Origin: Bacillota bacterium
GTDB lineage: Bacteria > Bacillota > Sulfobacillia > Sulfobacillales > Sulfobacillaceae
NCBI GenBank assembly: GCA_021784595.1
Contig: JAJYHT010000084.1
Coordinates: 1-62,512 of the forward strand
Direction of reading: 5' to 3'
DNA: 62,512 bases
Below, piece by piece: positions 32,606-34,918 of this stretch (position 1 is its first letter; each line of letters opens with the position of its first letter). The translations under genes and the position numbers were made by a program. The notes below the pieces were generated by a model. The model searched no databases, had not been told where the DNA came from, and saw only the letters and a program-made list of their open reading frames with translations.

Positions 32606-33874
32606 TCACGAAGATTCTACCTCTGGCAGTATTCGCTGACGCCGTTGGTAAATTGCGGGCAATATGGACCAATAACACCCTATCGCCGCGAGACCCCCCA
32701 TGACCGTCAACAGTCCCATGCCAATTGGCGGAACGATAGTGATTAGACTAACCACCAAGGCTGACATCATACCGCCCACGTTAAATGTCAAGTTATGCAC
32801 CGCAAGATAGGAACTGCGCGCGTGCTCTGGAGTCAAGTCGGCCAAAAACGACTGGCGCACAGGCACCGACAGCACTTCACCCAGGGTTGCCGTCATCATC
32901 GCAAGAAATAGCATGGAGGGCGCGGTCGCAAGATTCAGCAACCCGTATCCCATGGCAAAGAGTCCGATGGCACCACCTAAAATCCATTTATCAGGCACCC
33001 TGCGGCTAAACCGTCCAGCAAACAGTGCTAGGGCTACTACCAGCACCGTGTTTTCAGTGCGCAAAAATCCCAACATGGACAGCCCGCCTAAGTGAACGAT
33101 CGCCCCAGATCCGATGGAGACGGTGGTTTTGACAAAGTGGTCGACCAAGTGCACACCAATACCGTTTTGCAACTCGGTTTCGATAGCCATCATAATGGTG
33201 CCAGCGGCCAGATAACGCAAAAATGTGCGATCCTTCAGTACCGATCGGTAATTGGTAACAAATCCCGAGAAAGAGGGCGGTGTCTGGTCCGGCAGCGGAT
33301 GATGTGTTTCTCCGATAAACCAGACTGTTGATAGGCACGTGGCCCCAAACAATACTGCTGCACTTGCAAATAGCCAAAACCGATAGTGCACAAACATCAG
33401 TCCCCCCACGGCCGATCCAATGGCTATGGTTAGATTCGCCATCCAATAAAAAACCGTGTACATCTGCCCGCGATCTTTGACTGCAGTGACATCCAACATC
33501 ATAGCCTCGTCCACCGGACCGTAAATGCCCCAGACCGCATTACTCACCATAAATGCCAAAAAAGTGACCCATGGCGCATGAAGCACCGGACTGTTGGCTA
33601 TCGCCATAGCAGCATAAGCACTAGTTAGCACGAATTCACACCCATACAACACCCGACGTCTCCCGATATGGTCCGAGACAACCCCCCCAACGATTCCCGC
33701 CACCATCGCGACAAGCATGGTAAGTGCCAATAAGATGCCGGTCGGTCCGGCTCCAAAATTATGGGCGAAGTAAATGGTCATGAAGGGAATGGTAGTGAAT
33801 TGCGCAATACCAAGAAAAAAGAACGCACCTAGACGAATTCGCACATTTAGGTGTTGCCGCAAAAGAAATTGCAC
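32606..33874 (-). CDS. MFS transporter, probable drug exporter, under leader control
   Basis: 422 residues with about 12 membrane segments. The loop between segments 2 and 3 reads GGVVSDHIGRRRVL, the motif A of MFS antiporters, which favours export. The GTG at 33874 is chosen because GGGAGG lies at about 8 bases; the upstream extension runs into a terminator hairpin. A promoter (34066-34094), a leader peptide (33964-34032) and an intrinsic terminator (33912-33947) lie in its leader, so expression is probably switched by attenuation. It is convergent with the GPH carrier. The substrate is unknown; an antibiotic is plausible given the leader type. Confidence 0.88.
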   Translation of the reverse strand: MQFLLRQHLNVRIRLGAFFFLGIAQFTTIPFMTIYFAHNFGAGPTGILLALTMLVAMVAGIVGGVVSDHIGRRRVLYGCEFVLTSAYAAMAIANSPVLHAPWVTFLAFMVSNAVWGIYGPVDEAMMLDVTAVKDRGQMYTVFYWMANLTIAIGSAVGGLMFVHYRFWLFASAAVLFGATCLSTVWFIGETHHPLPDQTPPSFSGFVTNYRSVLKDRTFLRYLAAGTIMMAIETELQNGIGVHLVDHFVKTTVSIGSGAIVHLGGLSMLGFLRTENTVLVVALALFAGRFSRRVPDKWILGGAIGLFAMGYGLLNLATAPSMLFLAMMTATLGEVLSVPVRQSFLADLTPEHARSSYLAVHNLTFNVGGMMSALVVSLITIVPPIGMGLLTVMGGLAAIGCYWSILPAIYQRRQRILPEVESS

Positions 33875-33911
33875 GATAACGTTCCTCCCTGGGGAAACCT
33901 TTCCTGAGCAT

Positions 33912-33947
33912 AAAAAAACGAGCCATGAGATGATACCCATGGGCTCG
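33912..33947 (-). terminator. Intrinsic terminator inside the MFS leader (attenuator)
   Basis: On the minus strand a stem of CGAGCC(C)ATG with CATGGCTCG is followed at once by seven T (bases 33912-33918 as A). It sits 38 bases before the MFS start codon and after the leader peptide. No gene on the same strand ends just upstream, so it most likely controls read-through into the MFS gene. The left arm also contains CCATGGGT, complementary to ACCCATGG at the leader-peptide start codon, so the terminator can be displaced. Confidence 0.8.
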
Positions 33948-33963
33948 GCAGGAGTGATGAACG

Positions 33964-34032
33964 CTACCGCACGACAAAGGCACCATCAAACCAGCCGATG
34001 CGGGAATTCCCGCAAACGTCCCGAATTACCAT
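33964..34032 (-). CDS. 22-codon leader peptide (upstream ORF of the MFS gene)
   Basis: A small frame starts at ATG 34032, has a strong Shine-Dalgarno (AAAGGGGAGAGG) five bases upstream, and ends with TAG at 33964-33966. It codes for 22 residues beginning MVIRDVCGNSRIGW and ending AFVVR. The frame covers both arms of the stem AGGCACC / GGTGCCT and the palindrome GCGGGAATTCCCGC, so ribosomes on it would change leader folding. This is the pattern of ribosome-stalling attenuators before resistance genes. The peptide is not one that I know. Confidence 0.65.
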   Translation of the reverse strand: MVIRDVCGNSRIGWFDGAFVVR

Positions 34033-34065
34033 GGGTGCCTCTCCCCTTTCAATCCAATTGCCCCT

Positions 34066-34094
34066 ACTCTATCCAAAGTCCTCAAAGGTGTCAA
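34066..34094 (-). promoter_or_regulatory. Sigma-A type promoter of the MFS leader
   Basis: On the minus strand TTGACA (34089-34094), a spacer of exactly 17, and TAGAGT (34066-34071). Transcription would start near 34058, giving a leader of about 185 bases to the MFS start codon. This is the best promoter match in the window. Confidence 0.75.
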
Positions 34095-34432
34095 GACGGA
34101 TTGCACGGAACATCAGGTCTTCGGCAAAGTCGCTCCCCGGCCTTATTGTCGAACGGGATACGCAGATTTTGGTTTCTCGGGATACTACTATTAATCTGCT
34201 TTAGCGACCACGGACATCTAAGACAAAAATAAGTTCACCGCAACTATGAGTTCAATTATTATGTTAGAGTAACTCAAAGAGAGCGTCGTCCCGAATGTTA
34301 GGTGATGGTCCAGTGAAGGGATTACATGCGTCCACCATCCCCCATCTTCCCAAGCCATTCATGAGTCTCTGGGTGGGCGAACACCGTCAGCTCGCAATCG
34401 TTACACCAAATTTGCTATCAAGGAGAACTCGC
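34095..34432. other. Intergenic stretch upstream of the 161-residue protein
   Basis: About 340 bases with no supported gene. The open frame that reaches back to 34295 on the plus strand is only an extension of the next gene, without its own ribosome binding site. Nothing else recognised apart from the promoter of the divergent MFS leader at its left edge. Confidence 0.4.
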
Positions 34433-34918
34433 ATGACTGAACCGACACCCACCCCAGAGGCCGCTCTCCACCGACAGTGGGCCATCGATCTATTTAATGC
34501 GACATGGGAGTATATGGACAACCCCCACCGTTCCCCGACGGATGATACCCAGATGATTCACATGGCACACGCGTCCCGATATCATTGGGGTGTGGTAGGA
34601 ACACCGTTAAACCTGGCCCGTGGAGAGTGGCAGATTTCCAGGGTCTACGCTCTGGTCAGTCGCTGGGAGCCATCCTTATATCATGCCACTGCAAGCCTTC
34701 ACTGGTGCCTGGATAACAATCTCGGCCCCTTTGATTGGGGATTTGCCTATGAGGCCTTAGCAAGATCCTATGCATTGCATGGGGATCACACCAAACGAGA
34801 TCGATACCTGGAACTTGCCCTCCAAGTAGCCCAAACGGTCGATGATGAAGCAGACCGCGATTGGTTGCGAAAAAATATCGAAAGTGTCATGTCGTTGTCC
34901 ATTCCACCATGGGAGTGA
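34433..34918 (+). CDS. Conserved-looking protein of unknown function (161 residues)
   Basis: The start ATG (34433) has AAGGAG at seven bases. The protein is helical: an N-terminal half with HRQWAIDLFNATWEYMD and HMAHASRYHWG, then two helix pairs (FDWGFAYEALARSYALHG, DRYLELALQVAQT) that look like a TPR-type solenoid. I know no name for it. It has no membrane segment or signal. It stands alone between an MFS leader and a dead intron fragment. Confidence 0.7.
   Translation: MTEPTPTPEAALHRQWAIDLFNATWEYMDNPHRSPTDDTQMIHMAHASRYHWGVVGTPLNLARGEWQISRVYALVSRWEPSLYHATASLHWCLDNNLGPFDWGFAYEALARSYALHGDHTKRDRYLELALQVAQTVDDEADRDWLRKNIESVMSLSIPPWE

Follow-up and report, generated by a model that had tools for sequence, protein, structure and literature searches.

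In the leader of the Bacillus subtilis ABC-F gene vmlR, the Shine-Dalgarno (SD) sequence and start codon of a three-codon upstream open reading frame (uORF; MIN) lie inside an anti-antiterminator hairpin, with an alternative antiterminator and an intrinsic terminator, and this start-stall plan of attenuation was demonstrated experimentally, induction being caused by drugs such as lincomycin and retapamulin that stall ribosomes at initiation (PMC9226507). Ribosome-targeting antibiotics also cause read-through in bmrB-bmrCD of B. subtilis, in which the terminator is located inside the 53-codon bmrB coding region and the gene product is an ABC exporter (PMC4191407), and a leader peptide and a terminator precede the resistance gene in tlrB/yxjB, in which transcription and translation attenuation are combined and a stall at a C-terminal RYR blocks the terminator directly (PMC6851288). 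Here we analysed the leader of a major facilitator superfamily (MFS) exporter gene in a 62,512-nucleotide (nt) stretch of DNA from a Bacillota bacterium (contig JAJYHT010000084.1, hereafter the window). Comparison with orthologous leaders suggests that it is likely to be a ribosome-mediated transcription attenuator of the 1:2 / 2:3 / 3:4 type ahead of an LmrP-type multidrug exporter. As in vmlR, the SD and start of the uORF are part of the anti-antiterminator; unlike in vmlR, the uORF has 17-34 codons, region 2 is coding, tandem terminators are common and the gene encodes an MFS exporter. No sequence relation to the vmlR leader or its ABC-F gene was seen, the resemblance being one of plan only. 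The leader differs from bmrB-bmrCD in uORF length, terminator position and exporter type, and from tlrB/yxjB in having no conserved arrest motif.

All coordinates are those of the whole window, and the leader and MFS gene are read on its minus strand. The elements listed by an earlier sequence-only reading of this DNA (promoter, SD, 22-codon ORF, terminator with seven T, GGGAGG and MFS start) are all present where it had placed them, and are given below together with the regions of the proposed switch, in which region 4 would be the terminator 3' arm.

34066 to 34094, minus strand: sigma-70-type promoter, TTGACA (34094-34089), 17 nt, TAGAGT (34071-34066); 10 of 12 consensus matches
34041 to 34046, minus strand: SD GGGGAG of the uORF, from the sequence
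34034 to 34040, minus strand: putative region 1, AGGCACC, between the SD and start codon of the uORF, from the 1:2 helix statistics and covariation
33964 to 34032, minus strand: uORF of 22 codons, MVIRDVCGNSRIGWFDGAFVVR, ATG 34032 to TAG 33964
33978 to 33987, minus strand: putative region 2, GATGGTGCCT, near the uORF end; region 1 is the partner of its last 7 nt, region 3 an alternative partner
33935 to 33942, minus strand: CCATGGGT, antiterminator target in the sequence-only reading; partner ACCCATGG at 34029-34036, perfect 8 bp, not conserved
33929 to 33938, minus strand: putative region 3, GGGTATCATC, comprising the loop of the terminator and the top of its 5' arm; could form 10 pairs with region 2, 3 of them GU
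33912 to 33946, minus strand: intrinsic terminator (3:4) with seven T; stem 33946-33920, -12.5 kcal/mol; T7 at 33918-33912
33884 to 33889, minus strand: SD GGGAGG of the MFS gene, upstream of GTG 33874, from the sequence
32606 to 33874, minus strand: MFS exporter gene, LmrP-type by homology, 422 amino acids, GTG start; Pfam MFS_1, N-terminus matching orthologs from the GTG

The window protein also matches NCBIfam models, multidrug and tetracycline efflux models among others, all under their cut-offs, and the orthologs match the same models. A profile built from 13 orthologs retrieved a single PDB chain at E<=1e-5, that of LmrP of Lactococcus lactis (6t1z, E=8.5e-59), which by sequence homology places the protein among the LmrP-type MFS multidrug exporters. 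As LmrP alone was matched in PDB and pumps lincosamides, macrolides, streptogramins and tetracyclines (PMC4634932), the window protein is probably a multidrug exporter acting on drugs that target the ribosome, with substrates read across from LmrP. A second open frame starts at ATG 33940, within the terminator, and continues into the MFS gene; the ortholog alignment begins not there but at GTG 33874, which has its own SD.

Phylogenetic analysis placed the window protein inside an exporter clade of 17 orthologs (the window, 12 from Alicyclobacillaceae and four others of that order) with 100/99 support, apart from all other MFS relatives; the window branch is long and its exact place in the clade is not fixed by the tree. 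The first ortholog, on a plasmid of Alicyclobacillus fastidiosus (41.7% identity), has a leader of the same plan, and further orthologs, including those of Alicyclobacillus sp. ALC3 and A. montanus, were found in 12 of 41 genomes of the family and in four more from the order. Searches of the window's own genus and family yielded no relative above 32% identity, and samples of the phylum, viral contigs and phages gave no closer one. Two 32% relatives, L033 (G000:C43) and L034 (G030:C136), are without the leader, and each begins immediately behind a TetR-like gene or overlaps it, which is a different mode of control. No comparable leader was seen ahead of distant MFS relatives from Bacillus, Exiguobacterium, Peribacillus, Listeria, Streptomyces and others.

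A uORF of 17-34 codons at the same position, followed by a terminator-type hairpin, is present in 15 of the 17 orthologs, and no such leader was found by eye in about 500 nt upstream of the other two, G582 and G593. SD-like purine runs precede every uORF, the hairpin lies 13-37 nt past the uORF stop in all 15 leaders, and a -10-like hexamer ends 30-40 nt ahead of the uORF start in most orthologs. The window and 14 orthologs thereby share the order of promoter, uORF with its SD, intrinsic terminator and gene. The promoter score of the window was reached by none of the shuffles of its upstream stretch; promoters beat nearly all shuffles in only four of the 15 leaders, and promoter quality, too weak in several of them, was dropped as a test of the plan. 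The SD/start block was also searched for as a motif elsewhere in Alicyclobacillaceae, where the hits were scattered and exceeded the backward control somewhat.

In every leader the spacer between the SD and start codon of the uORF pairs with a segment close to the uORF end (helix 1:2). Examples are AGGCACC (34040-34034) with GGTGCCT (33984-33978) in the window, GTGGGCAAG/CTTGCCCAC in G576, GTGGCAAG/CTTGCCAC in A. montanus, GGACAAG/CTTGTCC in G566 and GGGTGTGAATCCA/TGGATTCACACCC in G579. Duplexes were compared with 1000 dinucleotide shuffles and Fisher-combined over 12 leaders, giving p=6e-9 for helix 1:2; the leaders are related, so that independence is overstated and combined values of this kind are optimistic. 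In covariation cores that were aligned by hand with bulged leaders excluded (8 leaders for 1:2, 10 for 2:3), four of the seven 1:2 pairs have double-sided changes, and 96% of the core pairs, dropping to 6-54% when slid. In two leaders that came to light only after the hypothesis had been formed, p was 0.0005 and 0.006. The alignment thus indicates that helix 1:2, which the sequence-only reading had drawn from the window, is kept via compensatory changes. The small ORF and the pairs are the features whose lack of conservation in relatives that reading had held to count against it, and both uORF presence and helix 1:2 are conserved.

Across the family, region 2 has a second partner, formed by the loop of the terminator and the top of its 5' arm (helix 2:3), as in CGGCTTGTCC/GGGCAAGTCG in G564, CGGCTTGTCC/GGACGGGTCG in G575, TGACTTGTCC/GGACGAGTCG in G574 and GATGGTGCCT/GGGTATCATC in the window. 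The combined p over the 12 leaders was 2e-6 for the top of the arm, where the window itself gave p=0.03, and 2e-5 for the arm as a whole, in a duplex test that leaves competing folds out of account; the two later leaders gave p=0.003 and 0.06, and the control pairing 1:3 gave p=0.80. Five of the nine core pairs have double-sided changes, and 92% of the cells pair, against 26-52% when slid. At the level of the family, anti-antiterminator, antiterminator and terminator are therefore mutually exclusive, 1:2 and 2:3 sharing region 2. Region 3 frequently repeats region 1 (GGGCAAG or near it at both sites), which would fit a competition of the two for region 2. When positions -15 to +15 at the uORF start were blocked, the predicted 2:3 pairs rose in 15 of 15 pre-terminator transcripts, to at least 12 pairs in 12 of them, suggesting that ribosomes stalled there would promote read-through.

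The comparison supports the leader plan, helix 1:2, the family-level helix 2:3 and a lack of conservation in the peptide; from vmlR and the substrates of LmrP we infer the order of events, ribosome stalling and antibiotic induction. With no ribosome on the leader, 1:2 would form, 3:4 would be free and transcription would stop, and a ribosome reaching the stop codon would cover region 2 and likewise lead to termination. If a ribosome were instead held at the start codon or early in the uORF, within its first few codons, region 1 would be covered, region 2 would pair with the emerging region 3, and RNA polymerase would continue into the pump gene. Candidate inducers would be antibiotics that act at initiation or early elongation, such as lincosamides, pleuromutilins and streptogramin A, and production of the pump is probably confined to conditions in which ribosomes are held at the uORF, by an antibiotic for example. 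As region 3 appears to imitate the sequence of region 1 in much of the family, the design may be a simple one, in which pump expression depends on occupancy of the start codon alone and not on the peptide. It would add a leader family, ranging over Alicyclobacillaceae and one more distant relative, to the switches that sense translation and keep resistance genes off until they are required.

Several points weigh against this start-stall model. In addition to the optimistic combined p values, the pairing regions were spotted by eye prior to testing. The fold of G567 has almost no 2:3, and in several members 2:3 overlaps just the loop and stem top. In predicted folds the terminator, once complete, prevails at equilibrium whatever the state, so that the switch must be kinetic and decided during transcription. 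In the window, 2:3 is weak (-11.9 kcal/mol with 3 GU), and with a ribosome at the start another hairpin is predicted (TCGGC..TGATG with CATCA..GCCGA), which touches the terminator arm only at its base.

The alternative that survives best, although we consider it unlikely, is the antiterminator of the sequence-only reading, in which a ribosome stalled near the uORF end would free AGGCACCCATGG and ACCCATGG (34036-34029) would pair with its complement CCATGGGT (33942-33935) in the terminator arm. This perfect 8-bp match is the strongest duplex of the window (-24.3 kcal/mol, p=0.05), forms in the window fold when the uORF end is blocked (7.75 of 8 pairs) and has a similar counterpart in ALC3 (8.4 pairs). 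Across the 12 leaders, however, it is not conserved (combined p=0.50), it was not significant in the two later leaders, near-zero pairs form in most folds, and CCATGG is self-complementary, so that two copies pair by default. The conserved switch, which links the uORF end to the terminator top, also puts the activating ribosome at the uORF start rather than near its end. Hence the ribosome-mediated attenuator which that reading had proposed ahead of the MFS gene is borne out in its uORF plan and 1:2 helix, and not in its drawn antiterminator or stall site. Taken together, the family sequences back an attenuator strongly and the start-stall model well, while in the window copy the pairing of the earlier reading is stronger than 2:3, and either may be the antiterminator there.

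The uORF peptide could instead be the sensor, through a drug-dependent arrest motif at a set codon, such as R/K-X-R/K for macrolides, as in tlrB. Arg is found at codon 2 in 12 of 15 leaders, encoded by CGN and AGA codons, with Lys in one, and one subclade shares a C-terminal LS[TI]PRG. The peptides otherwise differ widely in sequence and length, and those of the sister leaders G556 and G557 are separated by amino-acid-changing substitutions; uORF presence is conserved and the peptide is not. Because the peptides differ apart from codon 2, peptide conservation does not hold the family together. By inspection, R/K-X-R/K occurs in a minority of leaders only, and at the peptide C-terminus it is absent in the window and present in few orthologs, making a peptide sensor improbable.

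Still more improbable is a ligand-binding riboswitch or protein-bound leader to which the uORF is incidental, as might be suggested by the structured leader, the terminator and a perfect 16-bp palindrome TGCGGGAATTCCCGCA inside the window uORF (33999-34014), which could be a stable RNA hairpin or possibly a protein-binding site. The palindrome was not seen in any other fetched locus outside the window, the leaders have no conserved sequence core beyond the SD/start region, and no Rfam covariance model (T-box, riboswitches and others) matched the window or 14 loci, in agreement with the sequence-only reading, which had recognised no known class. The leaders thus appear to be a new, well-supported family of a known kind of regulator; a literature search combining Alicyclobacillus, leader peptide and attenuation found nothing relevant, an absence that is no proof of novelty.

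An ordinary terminator with a chance ORF and no regulatory role would fit the window leader by itself, which is near chance (whole-leader fold z=-1.75, 1:2 p=0.27, antiterminator of the sequence-only reading p=0.05), but is hardly credible given the covarying helices and the same plan in 15 of 17 orthologs, a comparison that raises the leader above chance.

A second hairpin that has a T run is present in nine leaders (L043, L050, L055, L056, L057, L058, L059, L063 and L078), and in such tandem leaders hairpin 1 can pair through its 3' arm with the 5' arm of hairpin 2 (combined p=1.4e-9, 8 leaders). A double switch, in which arm 4, released by a single 2:3 event, could also disarm the second terminator, is a tentative idea that we regard as unlikely, and terminator duplication would give the same complementarity. 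The informative case is G592 (L078), where the first hairpin keeps the region-3 motif without a T run and only the second looks like a terminator; if the double switch is true, 2:3 could reach the working terminator there only via the hairpin relay.

In the window, positions 33949-33968 around the uORF stop can pair with 33874-33890, which hold the MFS SD and start (p=0.016); this might form a second layer of control, at translation, as in vmlR. Sequestration of the pump SD by the post-stop stretch was rejected as a family trait (Fisher 0.32), being seen in the window only. The upstream neighbour of the leader is a divergent gene (34295-34918, 207 amino acids, without a Pfam match), so that the terminator has no upstream gene to serve. 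The plasmid-borne A. fastidiosus copy (L043) is flanked on both sides, within about 3 kb, by transposases of the IS6 and IS3 families, and with one ortholog on a plasmid near insertion elements, the leader and pump may move as a whole.
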